DNA from: Halobacteriovorax sp.
GTDB taxonomy: Bacteria; Bdellovibrionota; Bacteriovoracia; Bacteriovoracales; Bacteriovoracaceae
NCBI GenBank assembly: GCA_002720865.1
Contig: PBIO01000030.1
Coordinates: 124,001-188,000 of the forward strand
Direction of reading: 5' to 3'
DNA: 64,000 nt
A model generated the notes under the pieces. It was not told the origin of the DNA and did not search any database. It saw nothing but the letters and a program-made list of their open reading frames with translations. Each line of letters opens with the position of its first letter. Positions within the stretch are counted from its first letter, which is position 1. The translations under genes were made by a program, and so were the position numbers. Of this stretch, positions 31,576-61,191 are shown in pieces.

Positions 31576-32517
31576 CTATTCTCCAATCAGTTCAGAAATT
31601 AACTTTAAAGTGTTTTCAAATTTTACAAAAGATAAATCAGAGTCTCTTTTCTGCTCAAAATTTTGGATTAAGTCATCAAGGCCTTCTTTAATAAAACCAA
31701 GATTTTGTTCAAAAGATTCCGTATATTTTTGTTTTAAAGAAAAAGTTCCAGGATAATCTGCATTTTCAATTCTCTCTTCTTCGATCCATTCTTTACCACC
31801 ATTCTTTACAACTATCCGTCCTTTTTCAAAAACAAATATCGATTCTAGATAGTGATAAGGGACATCACTCCCCTTAATCAAAACACTTGTTCCTGTTTTA
31901 GTTTTACCTACTCCGACGCCTGAAGATCCGTCTTTTGTAATATTTGAAAAATCAATTGATACTTTTTCATCAACGATAAAGGCTATAAGATCCACCATAT
32001 GAGAACCGTTTGTTAAAAAACCTTTCGAAAAACTCACTTCACAAGATTGAAGCACTCCATAGTTTTTATTTTTTGTGATTTCTCTTATTTTTTTAAAGAA
32101 AGGATGGTGCCTTCTCATGTAATTAACGTTTACTTTAGTATCACCGATCAAACTAACCATCTCTTTAAATTCAGTAATGTTTTCTACAGGAGGTTTTTCT
32201 AACCAGACCATTTTTATGTCACTACTTAACGCTCTCTTGAGGTGATCATAATGAAACTTGCTTGGCGAGCATATGCTCAAGATGTCCACTTTTTCTTCAA
32301 TAAGTTCTTCAATAGAATCAAAAGCTTTTACCTGATATTTTTTTGAAAACTCGTTTCGAGCATCTTCGCAGGGATCAAATCCACCAACAACTTCAACGTC
32401 ATCAGAATTTAGATAAGCTTCCATATGGGTTGTTATTTCATTGTCGCAATTATCCCTATCGTACTTCCAAGCAATATTTCCTAGTCCAATTAGAGCTGCC
32501 CTATACTTCTTAGTCAT
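31576..32517 (-). CDS. Gfo/Idh/MocA-family oxidoreductase
   Basis: A 313-residue NAD(P)-dependent sugar oxidoreductase. The Rossmann motif is ALIGLGNIAWKYDRD, followed by VVGGFDPCEDARNEF, ILSICSPSKFHYDHL and the EKP motif in VWLEKPPVEN; the catalytic-domain HMVDLIAFIV gives the conserved histidine. The frame opens at ATG 32532, but ATG 32517, preceded by GAGAAAG and overlapping the PseF-like stop by 8 bases, is the better start. Proteins of this type next to ulosonate genes usually oxidise or reduce a nucleotide sugar or the ulosonate itself. The substrate is not determined. Confidence 0.83.
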   Translation of the reverse strand: MTKKYRAALIGLGNIAWKYDRDNCDNEITTHMEAYLNSDDVEVVGGFDPCEDARNEFSKKYQVKAFDSIEELIEEKVDILSICSPSKFHYDHLKRALSSDIKMVWLEKPPVENITEFKEMVSLIGDTKVNVNYMRRHHPFFKKIREITKNKNYGVLQSCEVSFSKGFLTNGSHMVDLIAFIVDEKVSIDFSNITKDGSSGVGVGKTKTGTSVLIKGSDVPYHYLESIFVFEKGRIVVKNGGKEWIEEERIENADYPGTFSLKQKYTESFEQNLGFIKEGLDDLIQNFEQKRDSDLSFVKFENTLKLISELIGE

Positions 32518-33217
32518 TTTCTTTCTCGCCATATAAGAACTTAAATTTCAACTCTGCTAGAATCCAATCTTGCTCATTGTCTATGTCTTGACACTCCACT
32601 TCGGGGACTTCGTAGCAAATGGAGTTATCTGAAAACAAATCTGGCTGTTTTTTAAATGTTGCTACTCTTCCCCAATAAAATTGTCCAATATCATGGTAGG
32701 CTGGTTCCAAATCCTGTGATCGGGAGTATTGATGCTCTGGTTGAAACATCGATATTTTTTGATTCTCTATTTTCAACGCTCTTTGAATTGGATAGCTGAA
32801 TCTTGTGACAGGAACGAGTGTGTTTGCTGTAGAGTTACTCATAAGTTCGAAGGATTCCTCTAACTTTTTACTCGTTACAAAGGGTGCTGTCGGGTAAATA
32901 CAGCAGAAAAACTCAAACTCTCTATCGATTCTCTCGTAAGAATCTACCACCTCTAGAATCACATCTCTGGTCATGGAATAGTCGTCTGAATTTTTTTCAC
33001 TTCTCATAAAAGGAACTTTCGCACCTAGGGACTTTGCTATGTTAGCAATCTCTTCATCATCAGTGGAAACCATTACTTCTTCAAAACAACCAGATTCTAT
33101 AGCTGCAATTATAGAATAATATATAATTGGTTTCCCATTAAAATCACGAATATTCTTTCGAGGGATTCTTTTACTTCCCCCTCTTGCAGTAATTATGGCA
33201 ACAGCATTTTTTTTCAT
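32510..33217 (-). CDS. pseF: Pseudaminic acid cytidylyltransferase (PseF-like)
   Basis: A 235-residue CMP-sugar synthetase that would activate a pseudaminic-acid-type nonulosonate with CTP. It begins AVAIITARGGSKRIPRKNIRDFNGKPIIYYSI, the CTP-binding signature, then EVMVSTDDEEIANIAKSLGAKVPFMR, EFFCCIYPTAPFV, and YHDIGQFYWGR. The IPRKNI, IYPTAPF and AYHDxGQFYWG patterns are those of PseF rather than NeuA or LegF. Its ATG overlaps the stop of the upstream gene (ATGA). The remaining pathway genes (PseC, PseG, PseI) are about 8-12 kb away, on the same strand, across an intervening plus-strand block. Confidence 0.9.
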   Translation of the reverse strand: MKKNAVAIITARGGSKRIPRKNIRDFNGKPIIYYSIIAAIESGCFEEVMVSTDDEEIANIAKSLGAKVPFMRSEKNSDDYSMTRDVILEVVDSYERIDREFEFFCCIYPTAPFVTSKKLEESFELMSNSTANTLVPVTRFSYPIQRALKIENQKISMFQPEHQYSRSQDLEPAYHDIGQFYWGRVATFKKQPDLFSDNSICYEVPEVECQDIDNEQDWILAELKFKFLYGEKEND

Positions 33218-34942: not shown

Positions 34943-34975
34943 TGGTCATTAATCAAAGATATCGAGGGCAACCTA

Positions 34976-36737: not shown

Positions 36738-36741
36738 GATA

Positions 36742-37602
36742 ATGCTAAAGAAAAGGATCGTTGGAACATTAATAATAAAAAATGGAATCGTAGTTCAAAG
36801 CTTTGGTTTCAATAAATATCTCCCCGTTGGTAAGCCCGAAGTTGCAATTGAGTACTTGGACCGTTGGGGAATCGACGAAATTGTGGTTCTTGATATTGAC
36901 GCAAGCCAAGCGAAAACCTCCCCTTCAATAGAGCCTTTAAAAAAATATTTTAAACATTGTCACGTTCCTGTTGCCATTGGTGGTGGAATAAAATCTAAAG
37001 AAGATTTCCAATCACTAATCAGAAACGGTGCAGATAAAGTAGTCGTAAACTCTATTCTTTTTACTGACCCTGAAACAGTTAAATGGGCTTCGAAAACGTA
37101 CGGTTCCCAATGTATTGTTGGTTCTCTTGACGTAAAAATGGTTGATGGCAAATACTTTGTAAAAGACAGAATAAATAATCAACTTTTTGAATTTGAAAAA
37201 TACATTAAAACTGTAGAAGAACTTGAACTAGGTGAACTGTTTATTACTTCTATTGATAAAGATGGAGCTGGCAAGGGGTTTGATCTAGAGCTTATTGAAC
37301 TTGCCACAAAGACGACACGTTTACCTGTAATTATTAGCGGTGGAGCTGGTAACCCATCACATTTTAGCGAAGCCTTACAGTACGACTTATCTGGTGTTGC
37401 TGCTGCAAACTTTTTTCATTATTTTGAGCACAGTGTAGTTATCACCAAAACACTTCTCGCTGCAAAAAAACACAGTATTAGAATGGACTTAAGAACTCGA
37501 TATCAGCCGGAACAATTATCTGATTCAGGCAGAGTAGCAAAATTAGATGATGCAGCTTTATCAAATCTTCGATTTGTTAAAATTGAAGAAGAGGTAATTT
37601 AG
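36742..37602 (+). CDS. HisF-like partner of sugar amidotransferase
   Basis: A 286-residue (beta/alpha)8 protein homologous to HisF. The start ATG 36742 gives MLKKRIVG, preferred over ATG 36715, which would run far into hisH. Phosphate-site segments are visible: AIGGGIKSKEDF and ISGGAGNPSHF. HisF Asp130 is kept (GSLDVKM), but the strand-1 segment that carries catalytic Asp11 (CLDVKDG in HisF) reads TLIIKNG, so the cyclase acid-base residue is missing. This fits a role as ammonia tunnel and activator of the HisH-type glutaminase rather than imidazole-glycerol-phosphate synthesis. The next gene starts directly after its stop. Confidence 0.88.
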   Translation: MLKKRIVGTLIIKNGIVVQSFGFNKYLPVGKPEVAIEYLDRWGIDEIVVLDIDASQAKTSPSIEPLKKYFKHCHVPVAIGGGIKSKEDFQSLIRNGADKVVVNSILFTDPETVKWASKTYGSQCIVGSLDVKMVDGKYFVKDRINNQLFEFEKYIKTVEELELGELFITSIDKDGAGKGFDLELIELATKTTRLPVIISGGAGNPSHFSEALQYDLSGVAAANFFHYFEHSVVITKTLLAAKKHSIRMDLRTRYQPEQLSDSGRVAKLDDAALSNLRFVKIEEEVI

Positions 37603-38868: not shown

Positions 38869-39585
38869 ATGAAAATTGGAGTATTTAGTGTTGATCAAAG
38901 TCCTTTTCTTGGACGCCTTCTGAAAGAGCTGAGCCTTAAAAGAATTCCTGTCGATTTTGTGATCTTTGATGAAAAAAGTACTTCCTCCAAAGACAAAGAG
39001 ATTTTCAATAGAAGAACTGAGGGTAAATTTCAAGTACTCCCCTATGAGAAATTTGATGATATCAAATTTTATAGTGTTTCAAATCATAACTCAGAAGAAT
39101 GTATAAATATTCTTAAAGATCAAAAAGTAGATTTAATGTTAAATGCATCAACCCCGAGAATTTTAAAGAGTGAAGTATTACAGGTAGTAAATCATGGTGT
39201 CCTAAATATGCACCCTGGGTTTCTTCCAGGATACAGGGGTTGCAGTTGCGTTGAATGGGCATTGAAAAACTTTGACCCAATTGGTGTCAGCATACACTTT
39301 ATGAGTGAAGAAATAGACAAAGGTCCTATAGTAATACAAGAAAAAGTTAATCTTTTAGGTGCAGGAAATTATTCAGACATTAGGACAAATGTATACAATG
39401 CCAGTATTAGCTCAATGGCAAAAGCCGTTGAACTACTAGTAATGAATGGATTAAAAATAGTGACTCCCCCAGTAGATGGAGGAACTTATTACAAACCTAT
39501 TTCAGATGAAATTTTCAAAATAGTCTCTTCTGATAAACATATCAAAGAATATTTAGTTAAATCGAAAGGTAAAAAACATGAGTAA
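38869..39585 (+). CDS. Sugar N-formyltransferase, short form
   Basis: A 238-residue N10-formyltetrahydrofolate-dependent formyltransferase. The catalytic triad is visible as the Asn and His in NMHPGFLPGYRG and the Asp in FMSEEIDKGPIV. It lacks the C-terminal OB domain of methionyl-tRNA formyltransferase and matches sugar formyltransferases such as VioF-type enzymes, which formylate a 4-amino or 3-amino group on a nucleotide-linked 6-deoxysugar. It overlaps the following DegT aminotransferase gene by 8 bases; such pairs commonly make an NHCHO-sugar. Confidence 0.87.
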   Translation: MKIGVFSVDQSPFLGRLLKELSLKRIPVDFVIFDEKSTSSKDKEIFNRRTEGKFQVLPYEKFDDIKFYSVSNHNSEECINILKDQKVDLMLNASTPRILKSEVLQVVNHGVLNMHPGFLPGYRGCSCVEWALKNFDPIGVSIHFMSEEIDKGPIVIQEKVNLLGAGNYSDIRTNVYNASISSMAKAVELLVMNGLKIVTPPVDGGTYYKPISDEIFKIVSSDKHIKEYLVKSKGKKHE

Positions 39586-40873
39586 ATTAGCAATCCTAGG
39601 TGGTACGAAACTAAGAGAGAAACCTTTTCCTGCTTACAACACCATAGGAAAAGAAGAAGAAGAGGCCGTTCTCAGAGTTTTACGATCTGGAAAACTTTCA
39701 ACTTATTTGGGTTCATGGCACGATGATTTTTATGGAGGAGTTGAAGTGCAGTCTTTGGAAAAAGAATGGGCTACTTTTTTCAACTCGAAGCATGCCATTT
39801 CTGTTAATTCTGCAACTTCTGGCCTGTATTGCGCGATTGGAGCTGCAGGGATTAACCCTGGAGATGAGGTTATTGTATCTCCTTACACAATGAGTGCCTC
39901 TGCAACAGCAATTATTGCTTATGGAGGAATACCAGTATTCGCGGATGTAGAAAAAGATCTTTTTTGCCTAGACATTGAATCTGTAGAAAAGAATATAACC
40001 AATAAAACAAAAGCTATTATGGTTGTTGATATTTTTGGACAACCTTACAACTCAATTGAAATAAACAAGTTAGCTAAAAAGCACAATTTAATTGTAATCG
40101 AAGATACGGCTCAAGCACCAGGGGCCAAATCAGAAGGCAAATATGCTGGTACTCTGGGAGACATTGGCATTTTTTCATTAAATTATCATAAGCATATTCA
40201 CTCTGGGGAAGGTGGAGTGATTGTAACTGACAACGATGAATTTGCCTGGAAAATGAGACTTATCAGGAATCATGCCGAAGCCGTAATTTCCGCAAAGGGC
40301 TATGAAGATAAAAAAGAACTAAATAATATGGTAGGTTTTAACTATAGGATGACAGAGCTTGAGGCTGCTATTTCAAGAGAACAATTAAAAAAGCTTCCTG
40401 CTCTTCTAGAGCAAAGAATCTCTAACGTTAATTTTTTAAACGAAAAGCTCTCAAGCTTACCTTTCTTATCCATACCTAAGGTTAGAAAAAACTCAACACA
40501 CGCTTATTACCTTCATTCAATAAAGTATGACCAGACAGTCACCGAAGTCCCTAGAAATAAATTCGTAGATGCTGTCAAAGCAGAGCTTCCGCCCACTTTA
40601 CTAAGAGAAGACTCTCCTGTGTTACTTAATTATGGCTATGTAAAGCCTATATACTTAATGCCCATGTATAAAGAGCGAATTGCATTTGGTGAACATCCAT
40701 TTAATTTGACCGACAGAGAATATAAAAAAGGGGACTGTCCTAATTGTGAGGAGCTTCACTTTGAGACTTTGATTGTGAACGAGTTGATTCGTCCGCCTAT
40801 GAGCCAAGAAGACTTGACCGATGTCTATTTAGCATTTGAAAAAGTTTGGAAAAATATTGATCAGCTAAAGTAG
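39578..40873 (+). CDS. DegT/DnrJ/EryC1/StrS aminotransferase
   Basis: A 431-residue PLP-dependent sugar aminotransferase. It begins with LAILGGTKLREKPFPAYNTIGKEEEEAV and has SATSGLYCAIGAAGINPGDEVIV, IEDTAQAPGA (PLP aspartate) and the lysine that would form the Schiff base in FSLNYHKHIHSGEGG. The length and the C-terminal CPNCEELHFETL segment distinguish it from the PseC-type enzyme at 43695. With the adjacent formyltransferase it probably makes a 4-formamido sugar. Its 3' end overlaps the convergent formyltransferase gene by 9 bases. Confidence 0.9.
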   Translation: MSKLAILGGTKLREKPFPAYNTIGKEEEEAVLRVLRSGKLSTYLGSWHDDFYGGVEVQSLEKEWATFFNSKHAISVNSATSGLYCAIGAAGINPGDEVIVSPYTMSASATAIIAYGGIPVFADVEKDLFCLDIESVEKNITNKTKAIMVVDIFGQPYNSIEINKLAKKHNLIVIEDTAQAPGAKSEGKYAGTLGDIGIFSLNYHKHIHSGEGGVIVTDNDEFAWKMRLIRNHAEAVISAKGYEDKKELNNMVGFNYRMTELEAAISREQLKKLPALLEQRISNVNFLNEKLSSLPFLSIPKVRKNSTHAYYLHSIKYDQTVTEVPRNKFVDAVKAELPPTLLREDSPVLLNYGYVKPIYLMPMYKERIAFGEHPFNLTDREYKKGDCPNCEELHFETLIVNELIRPPMSQEDLTDVYLAFEKVWKNIDQLK

Positions 40874-41627: not shown

Positions 41628-42689
41628 TTACCCTAAATATTCCCATTTAAAAGGTGTCCCTGCTTCAATATCTCTATTTACAGTTCGATCTAAAAGTTGC
41701 TCATAAAACTTTGGTTCAACACCTAGAGCCGGCCTTACTGATCTTAAGTTTTCAGGGGTCAACTTCTCACCCTTCTTCAATCCTTTGCATACATATAAAG
41801 ATCTTCTCAGGTTAAGGCTCGGGGCTTCTTTATTCGTATGGCCGTACCTTACTACACCTAATGATTTCCAAGATCTTTCACTTTCTACAACAAGGCTTCT
41901 CAATTCATGAGGTTCTAATGAAAAAGCCGAATCAACACCTCCATCATCTCTAGATAAAGTGAAGTGTTTTTCAATCATCACTGCCCCTAGTGCAATAGCA
42001 GAAAGTGGAACTCCAACACCCAATGTGTGGTCTGAAAGTCCAACCGGCACATCAAATAACTTTGATAAATGCGAAATAGTTTTAATATTAGAGTCTGCTG
42101 GATCAGCAGGATAAGTACTTGTACATTTTAATAAAATTAAATTTTTATTTCCTTCAGATTTAACGGCATTAACGGCGTCGTCAATCTCTCCGACACTGGC
42201 CATGCCAGTGGAAATAATAATTGGCTTGCCTGTGCGAGCAACTTTTTTAATTAGTGGAATATCATTACACTCGAAGGAAGCGATTTTATATGCAGGGACA
42301 TCAAGTTCTTCCAAGAAATCAACCGCTGTATGATCAAAAGGAGAACTAAAACAAAGCATTCCTTTTTCCTTACACCTTTCAAATAATTCCTTATGCCATT
42401 CCCAAGGTGTATATGCTTCTCCATATAACTCGTACAATGATTTTCCTTTCCATAGTTCCAGACTTTCACCAATCGTAAAGTCTTCAGACTTAATATTTAG
42501 AGTTATTGTATCTGGTGTGTAGGTTTGTAATTTAACAGCATGTGCACCTGCTTCAGCGGCCGCATCAATAATCTCATAGGCTCTTTCTATGGATTGATTA
42601 TGATTACCCGACATTTCAGCAACAATAAAAGGCTTATGGCCTTTTCCGACTTTAATATTACCGATACTTATCTCTTCATTAAAAAACAT
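41628..42689 (-). CDS. pseI: Pseudaminic acid synthase (PseI)
   Basis: A 353-residue NeuB-family synthase that condenses phosphoenolpyruvate with the 6-deoxy-diamino hexose to a 9-carbon ulosonate. It begins FIVAEMSGNHNQSIERAYEII, the PseI version of the family N-terminus (AEMSGNHNQ rather than AEIGINH). It also has GAHAVKLQTYTPDTIT, CFSSPFDHTAVDFL, PIIISTGMASVGEI, LLKCTSTYPA and LSDHTLG. Residues from about 290 form the SAF/antifreeze-like domain (RRSLYVCKGLKKGEKLTPENLRSVRPALG). AAAGGA is five bases before its ATG. It lies 2 bases from pseG. Confidence 0.95.
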   Translation of the reverse strand: MFFNEEISIGNIKVGKGHKPFIVAEMSGNHNQSIERAYEIIDAAAEAGAHAVKLQTYTPDTITLNIKSEDFTIGESLELWKGKSLYELYGEAYTPWEWHKELFERCKEKGMLCFSSPFDHTAVDFLEELDVPAYKIASFECNDIPLIKKVARTGKPIIISTGMASVGEIDDAVNAVKSEGNKNLILLKCTSTYPADPADSNIKTISHLSKLFDVPVGLSDHTLGVGVPLSAIALGAVMIEKHFTLSRDDGGVDSAFSLEPHELRSLVVESERSWKSLGVVRYGHTNKEAPSLNLRRSLYVCKGLKKGEKLTPENLRSVRPALGVEPKFYEQLLDRTVNRDIEAGTPFKWEYLG

Positions 42690-42691
42690 GT

Positions 42692-43702
42692 CTATCCTTT
42701 AAGTTCCTTGGTGATCTCTTCTATAATTTTCCTAGGCCCATCAACGTTAACGAGAAGTTGCCCATATTTACTCATTTCAGATCTCTTTTCAAAATTGAGT
42801 TTTAGTTTATTAAAGTCTTCTGACAATTCCCAGCCATTTCCTTGAATTCTTCCACCATAAATAGCTGTTTTCGTTTTCAGAAAATTTTTTGCTAAGTCCT
42901 CTTGGTGATCCACAATGCTCAAAAGAATCATAGGAACCCCTAAAAGAGCACATTCGTACTTAATAAAACCCGAGGTGATTATAGCCAAATCGGCGTTAGA
43001 AATTAGGTCTGCAATTTCATCAACATTCTTCAAGAATTTTATTCTGGGATATTGTTTCGAGAGTTTTACAATCTCTTCTTCTGAGACTTCCATTCCTATC
43101 AAATAATCGCATTGTAAATAATCGCATTCATCAAATTTCTCTAGGAAAATTTGATGTGTCTCTAGAGAAGTACTACCACCTATACAGACAAAAACGCTTT
43201 CAAGGTTAGTTCTGATTTCTTTTTTATATCCAGACTCTATCGTTTCGCGATATTGGTCTTGAAAAATAAAAAACTTTTCACCAACTAGGTTTAATTTAGC
43301 CTTTGGTGTCAATTCAGCCGATATACCTTGTGGAAAAATTAAAGTATCTGCTCCCTTTAAGTCATAGGAGATATCATTAAAAACACAAAGATTTCGGCAA
43401 AAGGTTTTTAAAAGATTGGCCCTCAGTTCAGAAATCTCTAACATATCGACAAAAACAATATCAAATCCGGTTTCCCACGATTCTTTTTCTGTCTCTACAG
43501 AAAGTCCTTCTTCCAACCTAGTTGATGAAAAATCTTCCCCGATATACTTGGCAACTTCATCACTTCCTTCAAAATAGAAAATTATTTCATCAGATATCTT
43601 TTTAGACTTCAAATATCGTGCAAAACTTATGGCCCTAAAAACATGTCCCCAACCATATGTCCCACCACCTTTTACTCTGAAAGCAACTTTTAATTTATCC
43701 AA
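42692..43702 (-). CDS. pseG: PseG: UDP-sugar hydrolase of pseudaminate pathway
   Basis: A 336-residue GT-B-like hydrolase that removes UDP from the 2,4-diamino-2,4,6-trideoxy-altropyranose. The N-terminus KVAFRVKGGGTYGWGHVFRAISFARYL holds the PseG histidine motif (GxGHxxR, here GWGHVFR). Later parts include VFVCIGGSTSLETHQIF and ADLAIITSGFIKYECALLGVPMILLSIVDHQEDLA, typical of PseG/MurG folds. The start is TTG with GGGGAG upstream, overlapping pseC by 8 bases. A 15-base tandem duplication in the coding sequence (43101-43130) gives the repeated CDYLQCDYLI; it is in frame and likely tolerated. Confidence 0.9.
   Translation of the reverse strand: MDKLKVAFRVKGGGTYGWGHVFRAISFARYLKSKKISDEIIFYFEGSDEVAKYIGEDFSSTRLEEGLSVETEKESWETGFDIVFVDMLEISELRANLLKTFCRNLCVFNDISYDLKGADTLIFPQGISAELTPKAKLNLVGEKFFIFQDQYRETIESGYKKEIRTNLESVFVCIGGSTSLETHQIFLEKFDECDYLQCDYLIGMEVSEEEIVKLSKQYPRIKFLKNVDEIADLISNADLAIITSGFIKYECALLGVPMILLSIVDHQEDLAKNFLKTKTAIYGGRIQGNGWELSEDFNKLKLNFEKRSEMSKYGQLLVNVDGPRKIIEEITKELKG
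43101..43130. repeat. 15-base tandem duplication inside pseG
   Basis: Bases 43101-43115 and 43116-43130 match at 13 of 15 positions. On the coding strand this gives CDYLQ followed by CDYLI. The unit is a multiple of three, so the frame is kept. It looks like a recent slippage duplication; whether relatives lack it would need an alignment. Confidence 0.7.
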
Positions 43703-44906
43703 TTGCTCCCCTTAAGGTCTCTATTACTCTATCCATGTCTTGCTCTCGCATTCCAGGATAAATAGGAATGCTTAAACATTGAGAATAATATTTTTCAGCA
43801 TTGGGGAAATCCCCCATTTTATAGCTATATCGCTTGGAATAATAAGGCTGAAGATGAACAGGAATATAGTGGACTTGAGTTCCAACCCCATTCGAACTTA
43901 ATCTTTTCATTAATTCGTTACGGTCAATGCTTAATTTTTCAAAGTCGATTAGGATTGGAAAAAGATGATATGCGCTTCCATGATACTCTTCTTTATCTAA
44001 AGTTTTTATGACGTTTTCATCGAATTGACTTCTAAAAATCTCAGTATATTTACTCGCTAGTTTTCGTCTCTCATCAATAAAGCCATCAAGTTTCTGTAGC
44101 TGTGCAGAAGCTAGAGCTCCCTGAAACTCTGTAGGTCTAAAATTAAAACCGACTTGATGAACCTCATAATACCAAGAATTAACATTTCCATTTGCATCAA
44201 AAGCTAGCTCTTTATTTTCCCATTGTTCACTATCTCTTTGCATACTATGATTTCTTAACAATACTAACTTTTTGTAAAGCTCAGTATCATTTGTTGTTAT
44301 AACCCCCCCTTCACCTGTCGTAATATTTTTAACCGGATGAAGTGAAAAAATCGTCATATCACTAAATTCGCAACTCCCTACAGGAAACTCTTTTCCATCT
44401 TTTGTTATATAGCTTGCACCTAAAGCGTGAGAAGCATCTTCAACTATTCGAACCTTGAATTTCTCTTTGAGCTTATTCAGTTCTTGCATGTCACAAGAGA
44501 GTCCACCAAAGTGAACAGGCATAATGCATTTAACATTAGAGTTTTCTAAAAGTTTATTTTCAACAGACTTAGAATCAATATTTGGGTACTCTTCTAATGT
44601 ATCGGCAAAAAGGACATCCCCCCCACAATATCTCGCGGCATTTGCAGAAGCTACAAATGTCATCGGAGTAGTTACGAGATAGTCACCTTCTTTAAAATCA
44701 ATTGCAGCCAACGCTAAGTGCAATGCTGTTGTTCCACTGCTTGTGAATAAGGCATGTTTCACCTTACATTTAGAAGCTAGATCCTCTTCGAACTCAGCTA
44801 CTTTTTTAGACATGGACAACCAGCCACTCCTCAAACTCTCGCTGACGGCCTCTACTTCTTTTTCACAAAAAACAGGTTTACTATAGGGTAGAAATTCTTC
44901 TTTCAT
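43695..44906 (-). CDS. pseC: PseC-like 4-aminotransferase
   Basis: A 403-residue DegT-type PLP aminotransferase matching PseC, which aminates UDP-4-keto-6-deoxy-L-AltNAc. It begins FLPYSKPVFCEKEVEAVSESLRSGWLSMSKKVAEFE; PLP residues are in SSGTTALHLAL, IVEDASHALGA, and the Schiff-base Lys in FSLHPVKNITTGEGGV. AAGG is eight bases before the ATG. Two G7 runs occur in the coding strand (44303-44309, 44618-44624), both coding for Gly-Gly; slippage there would shift the frame. It is first in the minus-strand operon pseC-pseG-pseI-formyltransferase. A PseB dehydratase for the preceding step is not in the window. Confidence 0.93.
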   Translation of the reverse strand: MKEEFLPYSKPVFCEKEVEAVSESLRSGWLSMSKKVAEFEEDLASKCKVKHALFTSSGTTALHLALAAIDFKEGDYLVTTPMTFVASANAARYCGGDVLFADTLEEYPNIDSKSVENKLLENSNVKCIMPVHFGGLSCDMQELNKLKEKFKVRIVEDASHALGASYITKDGKEFPVGSCEFSDMTIFSLHPVKNITTGEGGVITTNDTELYKKLVLLRNHSMQRDSEQWENKELAFDANGNVNSWYYEVHQVGFNFRPTEFQGALASAQLQKLDGFIDERRKLASKYTEIFRSQFDENVIKTLDKEEYHGSAYHLFPILIDFEKLSIDRNELMKRLSSNGVGTQVHYIPVHLQPYYSKRYSYKMGDFPNAEKYYSQCLSIPIYPGMREQDMDRVIETLRGAIG

Positions 44907-46535: not shown

Positions 46536-47515
46536 TGAAAAAAGTATTGATTACAGGCGGTGCAGGGTTTATTGGGTTCCACCTAGCTAAAACTTTGAGA
46601 AATTCAGGGGTCGAGATTCACATACTAGATAATCTTCAAAGAGGAAGAATCGATTCTGATTTTGAAACTCTCCTGGAAAGTAACAATGTTAGTTTTTTTC
46701 AAAAAGATCTTTTAGATTCTAGCTGTTTTTCTGATTTTGATACTGACTACGATTACATTTTCCATTTCAGTGCCATTATTGGTGTAGCCAATGTTTTAAA
46801 AGCTCCTTTCAGTGTATTAGATAAAAATGTAAAAATGCTTTCGAATGTGCTTAGTTTTTCTGAAAAAAACAAATCATTAAAACAATTTGTTTTTCCCTCC
46901 ACTAGCGAAATATATGCTGGAACACTTGAAAAGTTTGAATTAGAGTTTCCTACTCCTGAAACCACCCCCTTGGCCATTACAGATCTTGAAAAGCCAAGAA
47001 CGTCATACATGCTCTCGAAGATTTACGGTGAAGCAATGGTCATTCATTCAGGCCTACCCTATCTTATCATACGTCCTCATAATTTTTTCGGGCCGAGAAT
47101 GGGACTATCACACGTTATCCCAGAGCTTCTAAAAAGATCTTATGAGTCCAGTGATGGAGATTCATTAGATGTTTATAGTATGAATCATACAAGAACATTT
47201 TGTTACATAGATGATGCTATTAACCAAATCCTATCTCTTTTAGAACATGAAAAAATAAATGATGTTTTTAATATAGGAATTGAGACCCCCGAAGTAACTA
47301 TCGAAGAATTGGCAAAAACAGTTGTTAAAATTACAGGAAAAGATCTTATATTAAACGAGATGCCTGAAACACCTGGAAGCCCTAGGCGTCGCTGTCCTAG
47401 TATTCAAAAAGTATGTGGAAAAAGTAAAAAATTAAATTTCACTTCTCTAGAGGATGGAATCTCAAAAACTTTTGAGTGGTACAAAGCAAATTCTTTCAGC
47501 AGAGAACATTTATGA
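46535..47515 (+). CDS. NAD-dependent epimerase/dehydratase (extended SDR)
   Basis: A 326-residue SDR enzyme. The NAD site is KVLITGGAGFIGFHLAKTL, then DNLQRGR; active-site residues are in FVFPSTSEIYAG and YMLSKIYGEAM (YxxxK), followed by IRPHNFFGPRMG and NIGIETPEVTIEELA. It belongs to the UDP-glucose-epimerase/uronate-decarboxylase-like group, and since it follows a dehydrogenase gene by one shared base it might act on the uronate product as epimerase or decarboxylase. Its TGA overlaps the ATG of the next gene (ATGA). Confidence 0.85.
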   Translation: MKKVLITGGAGFIGFHLAKTLRNSGVEIHILDNLQRGRIDSDFETLLESNNVSFFQKDLLDSSCFSDFDTDYDYIFHFSAIIGVANVLKAPFSVLDKNVKMLSNVLSFSEKNKSLKQFVFPSTSEIYAGTLEKFELEFPTPETTPLAITDLEKPRTSYMLSKIYGEAMVIHSGLPYLIIRPHNFFGPRMGLSHVIPELLKRSYESSDGDSLDVYSMNHTRTFCYIDDAINQILSLLEHEKINDVFNIGIETPEVTIEELAKTVVKITGKDLILNEMPETPGSPRRRCPSIQKVCGKSKKLNFTSLEDGISKTFEWYKANSFSREHL

Positions 47516-48555
47516 TTGATGCACAAGCTCTTACGATAAGTCTCGAAAATTCTATACTCGACACTATAAAAGTAATTGATGAAGGGACCACAAAAATTGC
47601 ACTTGTTGTAGATGGAAAATCCATTGTAGGCGTCGTTACCGATGGTGACATTAGAAGGCATATTTTAAAAGGAAACTCTTTAGAAGAACCTGTCTCTAAA
47701 TTGGTTAGTAAAAAACCAGTCACGATTAAAGAGAATACACCGAAAGAAGAAGTTTTACAGATGATGAAAAAGTTTGAAGTAAAGCATATTCCTGTTGTAA
47801 ATGATAAGGATGAACTTATAGGACTAGAATGCCTAGACCTCCTGTTTTTCACAGAGAAAATTGATTACCCCGTCGTTTTAATGGCAGGTGGTTTGGGCAC
47901 AAGGCTTGGTGAACTAACCAAAAATAAGCCCAAACCATTAGTAGAACTGGATACCCAACCGATACTGGAAAAAATTATTGAACAGTTTAAAAATCAGGGA
48001 TTCTGGAACTTTCACATTTCAGTAAACCATATGGCCAATCAGATTATTGATTACTTTGGTGACGGTGAGAAGTGGGGGGTAAAAATTCAGTATCTTAAAG
48101 AAAAAGAAAAACTAGGGACGGCAGGTGCACTTAGCTTACTTTCGAAGAAAGCAAACTGCCCAATAATAGTCATGAATGCTGATCTTCTAACAAGCGTTAA
48201 GTTTAAACATTTTGTCGATTTTCACTTTGAACAAGACTCATTTGCTTCTATGGCAGTAAGAGAATATGAATTTAATGTTCCTTTTGGTGTATTGAATCTT
48301 GAACAAGAAAATATCACTAATATTCAAGAGAAACCCTCTCAGAAGTTCTTTGTTAATGCAGGAATCTACGTTCTCTCCCCGCAAGTTTTAGATATTTTAG
48401 AGCCTGGTAAGCATATCGACATGACACAGCTTTTTTCAAAATTGATAGAGATGAAGAAAAAAGTCGTTGCATTTCCCATTCGAGAATATTGGTTAGACAT
48501 CGGACAACCTAAAGATCTTGAGCGAGCGCAAACTGACGTTAAAAAACATTTTTAA
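47512..48555 (+). CDS. CBS-domain nucleotidyltransferase (PtmE-like)
   Basis: A 347-residue sugar-1-phosphate nucleotidyltransferase with two N-terminal CBS domains (about residues 5-115) and a GT-A-like catalytic domain starting VVLMAGGLGTRLGELTKNKPKPLVEL at about 122. Further motifs are GTAGALSLL, IVMNADLLT and NAGIYVLSP. The start ATG 47512 overlaps the previous stop; a frame opening at 47476 is inside the SDR gene. This architecture matches PtmE-type enzymes that make GDP-glucosamine derivatives for legionaminate-type pathways. The exact sugar phosphate is not known. Confidence 0.88.
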   Translation: MIDAQALTISLENSILDTIKVIDEGTTKIALVVDGKSIVGVVTDGDIRRHILKGNSLEEPVSKLVSKKPVTIKENTPKEEVLQMMKKFEVKHIPVVNDKDELIGLECLDLLFFTEKIDYPVVLMAGGLGTRLGELTKNKPKPLVELDTQPILEKIIEQFKNQGFWNFHISVNHMANQIIDYFGDGEKWGVKIQYLKEKEKLGTAGALSLLSKKANCPIIVMNADLLTSVKFKHFVDFHFEQDSFASMAVREYEFNVPFGVLNLEQENITNIQEKPSQKFFVNAGIYVLSPQVLDILEPGKHIDMTQLFSKLIEMKKKVVAFPIREYWLDIGQPKDLERAQTDVKKHF

Positions 48556-55040: not shown

Positions 55041-56111
55041 ATGTACAAAGTTAAAGCTGTTGGAGCTGGCTCCATTGGTAATCATATGGCCTATGCTTGT
55101 CGCCAGCTAAACTGGGACGTCACTATTTGTGATATCGACAGTGCCGCACTAGAAAGAACAAAAAACGATATTTATCCTTCTAGGTATGGAGCTTGGGATA
55201 CAGAAATAAAACTGGCTTTGAACTCAGAAGTAGAAACAGAAAATTTCGACGTTGTAATAATTGGTACTCCTCCTGATACTCATATTGCTATAGCAATCAA
55301 TGAGCTCAAGAATAGTTCTCCAAAGGTGATGCTAATTGAAAAACCATTATCTACACCAGAACTTGAAAACTTAAACGAACTTGAAGAACTTGCTAAATCC
55401 AAAGGCACAAAACTTTGTGTTTCTTATAACCATACGACTACTCAAAATACTCTTTTTGCTGAAAACCTAATTCGAAAGGGAGTTTTAGGTACTCCAAAAA
55501 GTATAAACGTTCAGTGGCTTGAGCATTGGGGTGGTATTTTTGGTGCACACCCATGGCTCGCTGGACCACATGACTCTTATCTTGGTTTTTACAAGCGAGG
55601 TGGTGGTTCAACTGGTGAACATTCCCATTGTATAAATATTTTTCAACATTTCTCTAGAGTTCTTGGAATGGGTGAAGTGACTGAAGTTAATGCGACAATG
55701 GATATGATCGAAAATGATAAAGTCTCTTATGATCAAAATGCAATAATTGCTCTAAGAACTGAAAACGGTTTAGTTGGCTCCGTCATTACCGATGTTCTTA
55801 CGAAGCCTGCTAAAAAAGCTGTCAGGATACAAGGCGATAAAGGTTTTATCGAATGGTATGTAAACTACAAGGACGGTTTCGATGCTATCATGTATCAAAG
55901 TGAAGGTGGAGAAATCCAAGAAGAACTCATTTCAAAATCTAGACCTGATGACTTTCAAAATGAAATTAAACATGTCGGAGACATCTTATCTGGACATGTA
56001 AAAATAGAAAACTCTCCCATTTCTTTTGAAACGGGCTTACAGACGATGAAAGTAATCCAAGCTGCTTATAGCTCAGCTATGAATAAACGACTGGTACAGA
56101 TAAATCAGTAA
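55041..56111 (+). CDS. Gfo/Idh/MocA-family oxidoreductase
   Basis: A 356-residue NAD(P)-dependent oxidoreductase starting at ATG 55041 behind AGGAGG. The Rossmann motif is VKAVGAGSIGNHMAYACRQL, then VTICDIDSAALERTKN and VVIIGTPPDTHIAIAI; the EKP motif is in LIEKPLSTPEL, and the catalytic-domain block is GGGSTGEHSHCINIFQHFSRV. It is followed 15 bases later by the NeuB-cupin gene. It differs from the one at 31576. It probably oxidises or reduces a sugar feeding the ulosonate synthase, for example the precursor aldose; this is inferred from order only. Confidence 0.86.
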   Translation: MYKVKAVGAGSIGNHMAYACRQLNWDVTICDIDSAALERTKNDIYPSRYGAWDTEIKLALNSEVETENFDVVIIGTPPDTHIAIAINELKNSSPKVMLIEKPLSTPELENLNELEELAKSKGTKLCVSYNHTTTQNTLFAENLIRKGVLGTPKSINVQWLEHWGGIFGAHPWLAGPHDSYLGFYKRGGGSTGEHSHCINIFQHFSRVLGMGEVTEVNATMDMIENDKVSYDQNAIIALRTENGLVGSVITDVLTKPAKKAVRIQGDKGFIEWYVNYKDGFDAIMYQSEGGEIQEELISKSRPDDFQNEIKHVGDILSGHVKIENSPISFETGLQTMKVIQAAYSSAMNKRLVQINQ

Positions 56112-56126
56112 TTAGAGGAACCCAGT

Positions 56127-57650
56127 ATGCAAAAACTATTAAAAGAAGACATGTTTGTACTAGACCTGGCCAATAACCATCAAGGTGATGAAGAGCATGG
56201 CTTAAACATAATTCGTAACATGGGTGAAGTAGCTAAAAAGCACGGATTGCAAGCGGCACTTAAATTTCAGTTTAGACAATTAGGAACTTTTATTCACCCT
56301 GACTATAAGGGCCGTGATGATGTTAAACACATCCCTAGGTTTGAAAGTACTGTCCTCACTTTTGATACTTACAAAAAGTTTACGGCAGAAGTAAAAAAAC
56401 AAGGAATGCTCTCAATTAGTACTCCTTTTGATGAAGAGTCTATCGCTTGGATTCATGAGCTAGATATCGATATTATCAAGGTTGCCAGTTGTTCAGCTTC
56501 TGATAAACCTTTACTTGAGGCAATCGCAAATGCCGGTAGACCTGTCATAATCTCGACAGGTGGTTTAACTCTTTCTCAAATAGATTGGCTTGTAAGTTTT
56601 TTCGAAGCTAAAAAAGTAGACTTTGCGATCATGCATTGTATTTCACTATACCCGACTCCCCCAGAGCAACTTAACTTAAATCAAATTGATCTCTTGAAAA
56701 AAAGATATCCTGAAATTCCAATAGGCTGGTCAACTCATGAAGAGCCTACCAATCTTGATGCCGTTAAAATTGCTTATGCAAAAGGCGCTCAACTTTTTGA
56801 AAGACATGTTGGTATGAACACGGATAAATATAAGCTAAATGGATACTCATCTACTCCAGACGAAGTAGATGCATGGATGGCTGCTTATAAAGTCGCAAAA
56901 GACTCTTGTGGTGGAACTGAACGTTCACCAGCCCCACCTGAGGAAATAAATGCACTTAGAACTTTATTTAGAGGTGTGTGGGCCAAAAAAGGAATTAAAA
57001 AAGGCGAAATCATAAAAAGAGAAGATATCTTCTTTGCAATGCCACTCCAGGAAGAGCAACTAGTTAGCGGTGATTTTTCAAATGATATCGTTGCAGATAG
57101 AGATTACGAAGCAAACCAACCTATTAATGAAAATATCGTTAAGTCGGATGTTGCACCGGATGACTTAGTTTACGAAATTATGCTCCAAGTAAAGGGTATG
57201 CTTAACAATGCACGAATCTTTGTAAATAAAGATGCAGGTATTGAAATTTCTCACCACTACGGACTTGAAAGATTTAGAGAGTTTGGTTGTGTGATTATTG
57301 ATTGTATCAACAGAGAGTATGCTAAGAAGCTATTAATCCAACTTCCAAGACAAAAGCACCCCTACCATCTTCACAAGAAAAAGGAAGAAACATTTCAGCT
57401 ACTATATGGTGACTTAGAAGTAGAAGTTAACGGCCAAAGGTCAAAACTCCTTCCAGGTGACACATTTTTAGTTGAAAGAGGTCAATGGCATAAGTTCCAC
57501 ACTTTAGATGGAGCTATTTTTGAAGAAGTATCAACGACTCACTTTAACAATGATTCGTATTACGAAGACCAAAAAATCGCTAAAATGGAGCGCTCAGAAA
57601 GAAAAACCAATGTAGACTCTTGGGCTGAGGCATTTCACTGGCGATACTAA
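56127..57650 (+). CDS. NeuB-family ulosonate synthase fused to cupin
   Basis: A 507-residue enzyme. Residues about 5-260 are a NeuB barrel (LDLANNHQGDEEHGLNII, ALKFQFRQL, LSISTPFDEESI, VIISTGG, IMHCISLYPTP, IGWSTHEEP); about 277-340 an SAF domain (TLFRGVWAKKGIKKGEIIKRED); about 350-507 a cupin with metal-site HLH at 414-416, Glu 421, PGD at 443-445 and His 455 (RGQWH). The synthase would join phosphoenolpyruvate to an aldose; the cupin may be an isomerase or epimerase providing that aldose. Its N-terminal motif NNHQG differs from PseI (SGNHNQ). It follows an oxidoreductase gene by 15 bases and precedes HAD and CMP-sugar synthetase genes. Confidence 0.88.
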   Translation: MQKLLKEDMFVLDLANNHQGDEEHGLNIIRNMGEVAKKHGLQAALKFQFRQLGTFIHPDYKGRDDVKHIPRFESTVLTFDTYKKFTAEVKKQGMLSISTPFDEESIAWIHELDIDIIKVASCSASDKPLLEAIANAGRPVIISTGGLTLSQIDWLVSFFEAKKVDFAIMHCISLYPTPPEQLNLNQIDLLKKRYPEIPIGWSTHEEPTNLDAVKIAYAKGAQLFERHVGMNTDKYKLNGYSSTPDEVDAWMAAYKVAKDSCGGTERSPAPPEEINALRTLFRGVWAKKGIKKGEIIKREDIFFAMPLQEEQLVSGDFSNDIVADRDYEANQPINENIVKSDVAPDDLVYEIMLQVKGMLNNARIFVNKDAGIEISHHYGLERFREFGCVIIDCINREYAKKLLIQLPRQKHPYHLHKKKEETFQLLYGDLEVEVNGQRSKLLPGDTFLVERGQWHKFHTLDGAIFEEVSTTHFNNDSYYEDQKIAKMERSERKTNVDSWAEAFHWRY

Positions 57651-57651
57651 A

Positions 57652-58260
57652 ATGCCCCTTAGTGAAAAAAAGGTATTTGTTTTTGATTTTGATGGAACTT
57701 TAGTTGATTCAAATAAAATCAAAAAGGATGCCTTCTTTCAGCTAACCGATAATGAGCAGTTTAATTTAATTCTTGAGAAGACTCATTCTAAGATGCCTGA
57801 AGTATCACGTTTTATTTTACTAAGAAATGTTCTTGAACAAATGAAACATGATGATATTCAAAGTGAAGTCGATCGACTTTGCTCATTGTACGGAAGTTTA
57901 GTAGAAGAAAAAACTATTGCCTGCACGGAAATGCCAGGTGCGATTGAACTACTTAAGCATTTAGGCCAAAAAAAAGTTAATATTTATCTAAGTTCAAACA
58001 CCCCTGAAATTAGTTTGAAAAAGATAATTTATAAAAGGGGTTGGGATCAATACTTTAAATGTCTTTATGGCTCTCCCCGCAATAAATCAGAAACGATTAA
58101 GCTAATTTCTAAAAATGAAAACCTATCGGATTCCAGTAGGATTGTCGTTTTAGGTGATGGTGAGTCTGATAAACTGTCCGCAGAATCCATCTGCTGTGAC
58201 TTTGTAGACGTAAATTCCGTTTCACTAGTAGATGTCTTAAAGGAACTAAGAAATGTATAA
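57652..58260 (+). CDS. HAD-superfamily phosphatase
   Basis: A 202-residue HAD hydrolase: motif I FVFDFDGTLVDSN, motif II in YLSSNTPE (Ser), Lys in RNKSETIKLI, and motif IV VVLGDGESDK. All four catalytic groups are present, and a helical cap sits after motif I. Between the synthase and CMP-sugar synthetase genes, it most likely removes the phosphate from a ulosonate 9-phosphate (or 8-phosphate), by analogy with KdsC and sialate 9-phosphate phosphatases. That would imply a phosphorylated aldose substrate for the synthase. Confidence 0.87.
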   Translation: MPLSEKKVFVFDFDGTLVDSNKIKKDAFFQLTDNEQFNLILEKTHSKMPEVSRFILLRNVLEQMKHDDIQSEVDRLCSLYGSLVEEKTIACTEMPGAIELLKHLGQKKVNIYLSSNTPEISLKKIIYKRGWDQYFKCLYGSPRNKSETIKLISKNENLSDSSRIVVLGDGESDKLSAESICCDFVDVNSVSLVDVLKELRNV

Positions 58261-58966
58261 GGGAAAAAAAATACTAGCTGTTGTGCCTGCTAGAGGTGGC
58301 AGTAAGGGTATCAAGTTAAAAAATCTTCGCTCAGTTGGAGGTCATACGCTTATAGAGTGGATAGCAAAAACAGTTAAGGACTCAACCACGATAGACAAAA
58401 TAGTTGCCTCAACAGACCATGATGAAATTGCTAAAGAATGCGAAAATTTTAATATTGAAGTACCTTTCCGTAGACCTGAATCACTATCAGGAGACAGAAT
58501 AGGAGATCTCGAGGTTCTCACTCACGCACTAACAGAGTCTGAAAAAGTATACAATACTAATTTCGATGTTGTAGTCATGCTTCAACCGACATCTCCTCTG
58601 AGAACGAGTGAGCACGTTGAAGAATGCATCAAAAAACTCATCGACAATGATTTTGACTCAGTTTGGACTGTTTCCGAAACAGACTCCAAAGGTCACCCTT
58701 TTAAGCAACTAACAATTGAAGGTGAGAACCTTGAATATTACGACAAGGAAAATGGAGGAAAGATTATTGCGAGACAACAACTTACCCCAGTTTACCATCG
58801 AAATGGTGCTGCATACGCTATATCAAGAGATTGCCTTTTAGGTCAAAAATCAATCATGGGAAAAAAATCATCTTACCACTTAATTCAAGGATCAATGATC
58901 AGTATCGATTCTGAGTTTGATATAGATCTTGTTAACTATTTTTTAAGCAAAAAGAATTGCACATGA
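58253..58966 (+). CDS. CMP-ulosonate synthetase (NeuA/LegF-like)
   Basis: A 237-residue cytidylyltransferase: VVPARGGSKGIKLKNLRSVGGHTLIEW, IVASTDHDEIAKECENFNIEVPFRRPESLSGD, VVMLQPTSPLRTSEHVEECI and YHRNGAAYAISRDCL. The QPTSPLR and NGAAY motifs are typical of NeuA and LegF and differ from the PseF-like gene at 32510 (IYPTAPF, GQFYWG). The ATG overlaps the HAD stop by 8 bases and the stop overlaps the next ATG (ATGA). It would activate the product of the NeuB-cupin enzyme with CTP. Confidence 0.9.
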   Translation: MYKGKKILAVVPARGGSKGIKLKNLRSVGGHTLIEWIAKTVKDSTTIDKIVASTDHDEIAKECENFNIEVPFRRPESLSGDRIGDLEVLTHALTESEKVYNTNFDVVVMLQPTSPLRTSEHVEECIKKLIDNDFDSVWTVSETDSKGHPFKQLTIEGENLEYYDKENGGKIIARQQLTPVYHRNGAAYAISRDCLLGQKSIMGKKSSYHLIQGSMISIDSEFDIDLVNYFLSKKNCT

Positions 58967-60321
58967 AAAAAGTACAAATCTTTTTAGAAAGCGATATTAT
59001 CATACGGCATTTTATATTGAATGATACTTTCAAAGAGATTGAAAGAGAGTGTTCTGTCCAATATATCATCTCAGATGACCACAGAGTCCAAACCCCCATT
59101 GATAAACTTAACTTGAAAAATGTAAAGCTCATTAAAGTAAACCGAAAAAGACTCGGTAAAATGCGACAACTGATAAAAGCACTTGGCCTTCGCAAAATTC
59201 AAGATAAACCGAAATACCAATTTCTAAAAGACATCTGGAAAGGCATTTTACCTGAAAAGTCTTACAAGAGAATAAAGCTTTATTCTCATCCATTAATTTT
59301 TCCGATTTATCGTTTTTTTACATTGCTTCTACTTGGTAATTATCCGGAACTAGAAGAAGCCGTCGATGATTTTAAGCCAGATGTGATTTTGCATCCCTGT
59401 GTTCTGGAGGGATTATTTATTTCAGATTTAATTTCTACATCTAAAAAAAGAAATATTCCGTTTGTTGTGCTCATGAACTCTTGGGATAATCCATCTACAA
59501 AAGCCACCGTGCTTGGACTACCAGACTACTTAGTTGTGTGGGGGGAACAAACCATGTCACATGCAATCGAGTTTATGGATATGCCAGCAGACAAGATAAA
59601 GAAATTTGGAGCTGCTCAATTTGAAGTTTACAAAGCCCCACCACTGAAAACCAGAAAGCAGTATTGCCAAGAAGCTTCTATAGATCCTGAGAAAACTTTA
59701 ATCATTTATGCCGGTTCAAGTAAAAGTATTAATGAAATAGAGCATTTGCAAACTTTAGAAAATGCTATCCAATCGGGTGATATCACGGATACTCATATCA
59801 TCTTTAAACCACACCCATGGAGAGCGACCCCAGAAGGCGAGCCAGATTTTTTCTCCATTGACTGGAAACACATATCCATGGACCCAGGAATGGTTCCGTA
59901 TTACAAAAGAAGCGTTGAAAAGAATGACGACTCTATTCAGCTTTCTAGTTATATGGATACTCATATTATTCTCTCTTCAGCTGATATATTAATCTCTAAT
60001 GTTTCAACCATTCTTTTAGAAGCGGCCCTGCACGGCATGCCAATTATGTGCATGGTGTCTGATAAAGAAATTGAGGAGAACAACTTCCTTAGAGTCACGC
60101 TAAACTCTCTCTATTTCAACGACCTAATGGAAAGGCTAGATGTTGCAAGATGCAAAGACCATCAAGAAATCGTCATCGAATGTAAGAAGCTAATAGATAA
60201 ATTCATGACTCCTGATTTTAAAGATAAACAGATTGAAAAAACAAAGTTTTTTGTTGAACTGAAAGAGAAAAGCTATGGCCAACAGGTCTTTGAACTTATT
60301 AAGAATATAGGAAAAGGATAA
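58963..60321 (+). CDS. GT-B-like glycosyltransferase, CMP-ulosonate candidate
   Basis: A 452-residue protein from ATG 58963 (TTG 58957 also in frame). It has FKPDVILHPCVLEGLFISDLIS, FVVLMNSWDNPSTKAT, LPDYLVVWGEQTMSHAIEFM, LIIYAGSSKSINEIEHL, HIIFKPHPW and ADILISNVSTILLEAALHGMPIMCM. The KPHP plus NVSTILLEA pattern is seen in capsule-type GT-B and polysialyltransferase-like enzymes. Since it follows the CMP-ulosonate synthetase with overlapping ATGA, transfer of that ulosonate is the simplest role. No membrane helix is obvious. Confidence 0.7.
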   Translation: MKKVQIFLESDIIIRHFILNDTFKEIERECSVQYIISDDHRVQTPIDKLNLKNVKLIKVNRKRLGKMRQLIKALGLRKIQDKPKYQFLKDIWKGILPEKSYKRIKLYSHPLIFPIYRFFTLLLLGNYPELEEAVDDFKPDVILHPCVLEGLFISDLISTSKKRNIPFVVLMNSWDNPSTKATVLGLPDYLVVWGEQTMSHAIEFMDMPADKIKKFGAAQFEVYKAPPLKTRKQYCQEASIDPEKTLIIYAGSSKSINEIEHLQTLENAIQSGDITDTHIIFKPHPWRATPEGEPDFFSIDWKHISMDPGMVPYYKRSVEKNDDSIQLSSYMDTHIILSSADILISNVSTILLEAALHGMPIMCMVSDKEIEENNFLRVTLNSLYFNDLMERLDVARCKDHQEIVIECKKLIDKFMTPDFKDKQIEKTKFFVELKEKSYGQQVFELIKNIGKG

Positions 60322-60324
60322 TTT

Positions 60325-61191
60325 ATGAATTGTTTAGTTTGCAACTCAAAAACCCAATTGATATTCGATAAACCAATACGTTTAGGAAAGCCTGGAACAC
60401 TAACTCCTGAAAATAGAAAAGTTTTTCAATGTAAAAAATGCCATGTCGCCTTTTTGGAAAAATATAATATAGATTACGAATCTGATGAATATCGTAACTT
60501 GGTAAATAAAGATGCTTCTCCAGAAAGTTATTATAATCAACATGACCCAGAACAAATCGAAAGGCTTGAACTTATTGGCTTTGAAAATGTGAGAAATAAA
60601 ACTGTTGCTGATATTGGATGTGGCTCAGGCTCTTTTCTAGATTTAGTTTCAACGTCTTCTTCAAAAGTATTGGCCATAGAACCAACGTCGACATTCAAAG
60701 ATGAGTTAACTAGAAAAGGCTTTGAACATTTCCCATATGCAAAAGACGCTTTAAATAAATATAAATCAAAAGTCGATTACTTAACGTCATTTGCCGTTAT
60801 TGAACATGTTGATGATGCCCTTGAGTTTCTAAAAGATTGCTTTGAGCTTCTAAGCGATGATGGTCTGGCAGTCATTTCAACTCCAAATCACGACGATTGG
60901 CTAATTGACTTTATGGGTGATACTTATAAAGAATTTTACTACCGCAATGTTCACAAATGGTACTTTAATTTTGAATCTTTTTCTTTTCTCGCTAAACAAG
61001 CTGGCTTTTCAAAAGTAGAAGCTGTTTACCGACACCAATATGACCTTTCAAATATGCTATTTTGGCTTAAAGAAAGTAAGCCAACAGGAAATGGAAAGAT
61101 TAATTTATTTTCTGAGATCAACAATGACTACAAAAAGGTTTTGGAAAAAGAAGGTATCTCAAATTACGTTTACTTTAAATTATCAAAATAA
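60325..61191 (+). CDS. Zinc-finger SAM methyltransferase
   Basis: A 288-residue protein with N-terminal CLVC...CKKC zinc-type pairs and a class I methyltransferase core: TVADIGCGSGSFLDLVS, KVLAIEPTS, VDYLTSFAVIEHVDDALEFLKDCFELLSDDGLAVISTPN. This resembles sugar C-methyltransferases and methyltransferases of polysaccharide loci. It begins 3 bases after the glycosyltransferase gene, completing the ulosonate operon, and ends in a 9-base overlap with a convergent GT4 gene. It may methylate the transferred ulosonate or a chain terminus. Confidence 0.85.
   Translation: MNCLVCNSKTQLIFDKPIRLGKPGTLTPENRKVFQCKKCHVAFLEKYNIDYESDEYRNLVNKDASPESYYNQHDPEQIERLELIGFENVRNKTVADIGCGSGSFLDLVSTSSSKVLAIEPTSTFKDELTRKGFEHFPYAKDALNKYKSKVDYLTSFAVIEHVDDALEFLKDCFELLSDDGLAVISTPNHDDWLIDFMGDTYKEFYYRNVHKWYFNFESFSFLAKQAGFSKVEAVYRHQYDLSNMLFWLKESKPTGNGKINLFSEINNDYKKVLEKEGISNYVYFKLSK

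Follow-up and report, generated by a model that had tools for sequence, protein, structure and literature searches.

A tightly packed run of six plus-strand genes occupies positions 55041-61191 of the stretch analysed here, a 64,000-nucleotide section of contig PBIO01000030.1 from Halobacteriovorax sp. (hereafter the window, whose coordinates are used throughout). Since the intergenic gaps are 15, 1, -8, -4 and 3 bases, we judge the run by its layout to be a single transcription unit; scans for promoters and terminators returned fewer promoter-like matches than shuffled sequences did, and none that was useful. The first gene is better started at 55041, an ATG that follows AGGAGG, than at the mechanical start at 55023. 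An initial annotation of this DNA had grouped the first five genes in one operon, and all five do lie on this strand, in the order and very nearly at the positions it gave; it left out the methyltransferase gene that belongs to the same run. The genes, and the domains encoded by the second of them, are as follows.

55041..56111, plus strand: Gfo/Idh/MocA oxidoreductase, gene 1 of the run (Pfam GFO_IDH_MocA, 4.4e-10)
56127..57650, plus strand: NeuB-SAF-cupin fusion of 507 amino acids, predicted bifunctional aldose-ketose isomerase and phosphoenolpyruvate (PEP)-condensing ulosonate synthase
56145..56912, plus strand: NeuB TIM-barrel synthase domain of the fusion, residues 7-262 (PF03102, 3.8e-42)
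56937..57137, plus strand: SAF (antifreeze-like) domain of the fusion, residues 271-337, with M305 at the position of Neisseria NeuB R314
57147..57626, plus strand: cupin domain of the fusion, D-lyxose/L-ribose isomerase family, residues 341-500 (Cupin_2, 2.5e-9; PF07385)
57652..58260, plus strand: HAD phosphatase with cap, signature FDFDGTLVDSNxIK (HAD_2, 3.2e-14)
58253..58966, plus strand: cytidine monophosphate (CMP)-sugar synthetase, PseF-like (CTP_transf_3, 5.4e-24)
58963..60321, plus strand: GT-B-like glycosyltransferase (weak matches to the BFO_1060 and LIC13510 families)
60325..61191, plus strand: S-adenosylmethionine-dependent methyltransferase with an N-terminal Cys4 zinc ribbon, sixth gene of the run

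We consider it fairly probable that the product of this operon is a CMP-activated 3-deoxy-2-ulosonic acid that lacks an N-acyl group and is destined for a surface glycan, and that it is made with the help of a fusion protein acting as both isomerase and synthase. The gene content, domain family membership, catalytic residues and recurrence on which the proposal is built were observed directly. No 4,6-dehydratase or aminotransferase gene lies within the six-gene run, as had been noted before.

The fusion is no artefact, and its recurrence in samples of two phyla makes it more than chance. Of 368 genomes searched in the window's phylum, 12 gave strong matches, most of them fusions, and so did 13 of 398 genomes sampled from the phylum of Marine bacterium B5-7 (L023), where 12 of the 13 are fusions; the B5-7 protein is 59% identical to that of the window. 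An alignment of 21 fusions runs over their full length and shows residues that are invariant in each half. No fusion was found in the plasmids and viral contigs searched.

The neighbourhoods of these genes fall mainly into two kinds. In context A, defined by the window's oxidoreductase lying immediately or one gene upstream of the fusion, the operon type proposed for a search by the initial annotation is present in 10 intact loci (the window, L023, L035, L042, L060, L061, L076, L077, L081 and L082), with L045 ending at a contig edge; it is L060 that has one gene between the two. The CMP-synthetase is present in eight of these 10 and the HAD gene in six, lying directly downstream of the fusion in five of them and 2.4 kb away in one. 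In three further samples searched with the oxidoreductase, a fusion lay beside it in all 7 genomes matched at E<=1e-50. A homologue of the GT-B-like protein (22% identity) adjoins the operon in L061, and the methyltransferase is also near it in L023, L035 and L042. Neither an aminotransferase nor a dehydratase is a recurrent neighbour of the fusion in context A loci. In context B, comprising eleven loci (L036-L040, L062, L064 and L067-L070), the fusion lies next to or near an acetolactate-synthase-like (YerE/ALS-like) thiamine diphosphate (ThDP) enzyme, and several of these loci also carry glucose-1-phosphate cytidylyltransferase, cytidine diphosphate (CDP)-glucose 4,6-dehydratase and RfbH (RfbF/G/H). 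L063, L065 and L066 belong to neither context.

The synthase half is readily recognised: PF03102 scores 144.8 bits on the fusion against a cut-off of 22.1, and the SAF domain, which with 17.5 bits stays under its Pfam cut-off of 21, is confirmed by fold, the AlphaFold model aligning over residues 7-339 to 3g8r and over residues 1-339 to Neisseria NeuB (Z about 32). The closest solved structure is 3g8r (480 bits; Z 40.3; root-mean-square deviation 1.2 Å over 333 residues), an SpsE-like protein of Chromobacterium violaceum whose entry carries no assigned function and whose solved chain of 350 residues has no cupin. While the TIM barrel and SAF arrangement, the metal histidines and the PEP-binding lysines are those of the NeuB/PseI/LegI synthases (PF03102), the fusion belongs to a separate subfamily, with GxSTHE in place of GxSDH and an isomerase cupin attached. 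It does not reach the equivalog cut-off of either N-acetylneuraminate synthase (TIGR03569, 139.9 of 399.65 bits) or pseudaminic acid synthase (TIGR03586, 125.2 of 340.25 bits), and in our tree the fusions are united with their cupin-less relatives by a long branch that has full support. The cupin-less L043, L044, L046 and L071 nest among the fusions in this tree, a position consistent with their having lost it. R314 in the SAF domain of Neisseria NeuB, whose position we located by alignment with the R314A entry 4ipi, is the residue that contacts the N-acyl group of the substrate. At this position all 25 subfamily members have M, I, F or V and all nine classical NeuB/PseI proteins, the window's own PseI included, have R. 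The loss of this arginine therefore argues for, rather than proves, a substrate without an N-acyl group.

The cupin half is homologous to D-lyxose/L-ribose isomerases, because profile, fold and catalytic residues agree. Pfam Lyx_isomer (PF07385) scores 28.1 bits on the window fusion (cut-off 20.8; range 28.1-32.5 bits) and matches 20 of the 21 family members, and a profile of the cupin half finds the D-lyxose isomerase of B. subtilis (2y0o, 1.1e-16) and the Thermofilum enzyme TsLI (7nzo, 5.9e-14) over the whole domain. A fold search with the whole model was filled by matches to the NeuB half, hence the cupin domain was folded alone (predicted local distance difference test score 92.1); its twelve best matches are all D-lyxose/L-ribose isomerases, with Z from 19.6 to 14.9 (18.6-19.6 at the top of the list) against 13.5 for the next family, and Foldseek agrees with this ranking. 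A generic cupin or quercetinase was also considered, as quercetin dioxygenase comes top in a single-sequence phmmer search, and was rejected since profile and fold rank D-lyxose isomerases first over the whole domain.

The active site of TsLI consists of K62, H75, H77, K86, E88, H143, E156 and D163 (PMC8378251). These align, in order, to K401, H414, H416, K419, E421, H455, E467 and N474 of the fusion, so that seven of the eight, all but D163, are kept in the window protein and in nearly all context A members. The metal ligands H414, H416, E421 and H455 are intact, as are K419 and E467, the equivalents of catalytic K86 and E156. Three of the four metal ligands, together with K401 and E467, do not vary across the 21 distant fusions, and K419 hardly varies; among the 11 members outside the context A set, seven have Gln at the position of H414. 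The fusion cupins thus resemble D-lyxose isomerases (TsLI, 2y0o, E. coli z5688) and L-ribose isomerase in whole-domain profile, fold, metal site and the equivalents of K62, K86 and E156, and differ from them in being joined to a synthase, in lacking a conserved D163 equivalent and in having added invariant SHHxG and RK motifs. Their invariant basic residues H376, H377, K400, R492 and K493 might be considered as candidate phosphate ligands. We conclude that the cupin is probably an active isomerase, a prediction that does not claim D-lyxose as its own substrate. The initial annotation had spoken of a cupin with intact metal motifs as in sugar isomerases and of one protein that may both make the aldose and condense it; the former can now be narrowed to the D-lyxose/L-ribose isomerase family, which lends independent support to the latter.

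For the pathway as a whole we infer every reaction, every substrate and the order of the steps. The cupin half would convert a ketose to a 2,3-cis aldose (xylulose to lyxose, fructose to mannose, or L-ribulose to L-ribose) and the NeuB half would condense this aldose with PEP. The HAD enzyme would dephosphorylate the ulosonate or, at an earlier stage, the ketose; the PseF-like enzyme would turn the ulosonate into a CMP sugar, and the glycosyltransferase and methyltransferase would put it in place and modify it. The Gfo/Idh enzyme, always present with the fusion in context A, might oxidise or epimerise one of the sugars; its nicotinamide adenine dinucleotide motif GAGSxG, the lysine of its catalytic EKP and its EHSH motif are all invariant in 11 orthologues, and judged by these motifs it is active, its nearest solved relatives being weak and varied matches. 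In outline the scheme is that of the KdsD-KdsA-KdsC-KdsB pathway to 3-deoxy-D-manno-octulosonic acid (Kdo), with isomerase, PEP synthase, HAD phosphatase and CMP-synthetase, whereas the isomerase and the synthase (NeuB type, not KdsA) come from other protein families. The same logic underlies the biosynthesis of the non-amino C9 acid 3-deoxy-D-glycero-D-galacto-nonulosonic acid (Kdn) by Kdn-9-phosphate synthase, phosphatase and CMP-Kdn synthetase, for which we know of no isomerase fusion or Gfo/Idh gene; our search of the Kdn pathway literature returned only the haptophyte pathway. The Kdn, octulosonate and erwiniose literature contained nothing on a NeuB-cupin fusion, and neither the fusion nor its product is described in the open papers searched, a partial coverage in which not found does not mean not published.

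Some observations weigh against this proposal. TsLI D163, whose counterpart is required in the E. coli enzyme, aligns to the variable N474 in a loop of uncertain alignment (a near-invariant D476 lies two residues further on in the fusion family). The NeuB subfamily also has members without a cupin (L043, L044, L046, L071 and the 3g8r chain), and therefore the isomerase is not always required; no enzyme assay of the subfamily was found in the literature searched. Moreover, the HAD gene is missing from four of the 10 intact context A loci. For this reason the phosphorylated intermediate that this gene had suggested to the initial annotation is no more than a possibility. The phosphatase could as well act before the isomerase.

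Substrates interconverted by D-lyxose isomerases include xylulose and lyxose as well as fructose and mannose, and some of these enzymes make L-ribose (PMC8378251), so that lyxose or ribose, leading to C8 acids, and mannose, leading to Kdn, are the candidates. In the Kdn case, which falls within our proposal and to which we give rather less than even chances, the cupin would form mannose(-6-phosphate) from fructose(-6-phosphate), the NeuB half would add PEP, the HAD enzyme would take off the 9-phosphate and CMP-Kdn would follow. The fructose-mannose activity of the isomerase family agrees with this, as do the use of C6 aldoses by NeuB relatives and the CMP-synthetase, which at 112.5 bits stays below the PseF equivalog cut-off (TIGR03584, 205.7) and yet is nearer to PseF than to the KdsB models, of which the best gives 60.4 bits. 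The C-terminal domain of type I phosphomannose isomerase (PF01238) has no match in the organism's own genome, which would point the same way, but the control is weak (matches in only 2 of 14 genomes) and we do not use the result as strong evidence. On the other side, there is less call for a dedicated isomerase where mannose-6-phosphate is already available. Pointing instead to pentoses, at one locus only, is the araD gene for L-ribulose-5-phosphate 4-epimerase (L038:1797-2504), directly downstream of the fusion on the same strand and above its NCBIfam cut-off; AraD interconverts L-ribulose-5-phosphate and D-xylulose-5-phosphate. A new C8 ulosonate, formed from D-xylulose or L-ribulose (free or as 5-phosphate) via D-lyxose or L-ribose, is thus the other possibility, and we weigh the two as about equal, each short of an even chance. 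Besides AraD, the cupin's nearest structures, which are D-lyxose and L-ribose isomerases, speak for it, and since Kdo has canonical enzymes of its own, a distinct C8 sugar would not be redundant; against it, the PseF-like synthetase is more suggestive of a C9 acid. Of the earlier idea of a non-amino ulosonate, Kdn-like or octulosonate-like, the first part gains support from the arginine lost across the subfamily and from the lack of a recurring aminotransferase or dehydratase, and the sequence does not decide the second.

It is also conceivable, if improbable, that catalysis is confined to the NeuB half, with the cupin serving to bind sugar or to regulate. The cupin-less relatives, the poorly conserved D163 equivalent and the Gln at the first metal histidine in most of the second set would all fit. 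Yet a binding domain need not keep the metal ligands and lysine and glutamate residues that are invariant or nearly so in 21 members, and there are active zinc phosphomannose isomerases that have Gln instead of the first metal His. That the operon produces legionaminate or some other amino ulosonate, drawing on genes elsewhere in the cluster for what it lacks, we regard as very unlikely: aminotransferases do occur elsewhere in the window, but the N-acyl arginine is lost, the 17 kb of L035, where a sister operon lies, contain no aminotransferase, and the window's pseudaminate set has its own synthase and CMP-synthetase. The members of that set lie above their NCBIfam cut-offs.

41628..42689, minus strand: PseI of the pseudaminate pathway, keeps the N-acyl arginine (496.6 bits, cut-off 340.25)
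32510..33217, minus strand: PseF of the pseudaminate pathway (308.2 bits, cut-off 205.7)
43695-44906: true PseC of the pseudaminate pathway (438.4 bits, cut-off 423.5)

The route to a non-N-acyl ulosonate proposed here is thus separate from pseudaminate, as the initial annotation had it, but its count of two was slightly off: a canonical Kdo synthase (KdsA) and an arabinose-5-phosphate isomerase (KdsD) are encoded on other contigs of the same genome, making this a third route.

If our proposal is true, one polypeptide couples aldose-ketose isomerisation to PEP condensation, an arrangement we did not find described, and acidic sugars lie behind genes that standard annotation calls N-acetylneuraminate or pseudaminate synthase, so that 'sialic acid synthase' annotations would be corrected for the whole subfamily. 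A second use of ulosonates, as acyl donors, is suggested by the sister fusions that adjoin YerE-like ThDP enzymes and CDP-dideoxyhexose genes. 3-Deoxy-2-ulosonates are 4-hydroxy-2-oxo acids. YerE-like enzymes couple a keto acid to CDP-4-keto-3,6-dideoxyglucose, and the preferred donors of ErwE and of the caryophyllose enzyme MMAR_2332 are hydroxylated keto acids, 4-hydroxy-2-oxo acids among them (PMC12247030). Caryophyllose has a 1,3,4,5-tetrahydroxyhexyl side chain (PMC5706390), whose CH2 sits where a PEP-derived carbon would lie. We hypothesise that context B fusions supply ulosonates as keto-acid or acyl donors for long branched sugars, which, if true, makes the origin of the hydroxylated donors of ErwE- and caryophyllose-type enzymes testable. 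The likeness to the yersiniose, erwiniose and caryophyllose clusters is seen in the eleven sister loci; the window operon, unlike them, has a CMP-synthetase and a glycosyltransferase and no ThDP enzyme or CDP-hexose genes in the run. A wider reading, which we find doubtful, is that of one isomerase-synthase family making non-amino ulosonates from ketoses via lyxo or ribo aldoses, with the window's branch CMP-activating an undescribed octulosonate and the other branch feeding YerE-like ThDP enzymes.

Several further observations concern neighbouring genes. Two WbuX N-acetyl sugar amidotransferases flanking HisH (34883-38859) form an acetamidino set that likely serves the window's pseudaminate or another amino sugar. 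An additional PseC-like aminotransferase, below cut-off, lies behind a formyltransferase-like gene at 39578-40873, apart from the true PseC, and the protein with a CBS domain and a sugar-1-phosphate nucleotidyltransferase at 47476-48555 resembles the PtmE type of legionaminate clusters. The HAD enzyme as a universal pathway gene was considered and dropped; its farther relatives in G107, G121 and G022 sit in other neighbourhoods, two of them beside another cytidylyltransferase. Related HAD genes lie beside a D-3-phosphoglycerate-dehydrogenase-like gene in L100, L101 and L102, with another cytidylyltransferase in L100 and L102, apparently a different CMP-sugar pathway. In L042 (10403-13919) two distinct CMP-synthetases of the operon type are found on the strand opposite the fusion, together with two glycosyltransferase-like genes and a methyltransferase. 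The cupin-less members of L043, L044 and L071 lie beside ThDP enzymes, and near the ThDP gene of L038 (6642-8412) a short NeuB-like protein of 246 amino acids without SAF is followed by a second Gfo/Idh oxidoreductase.

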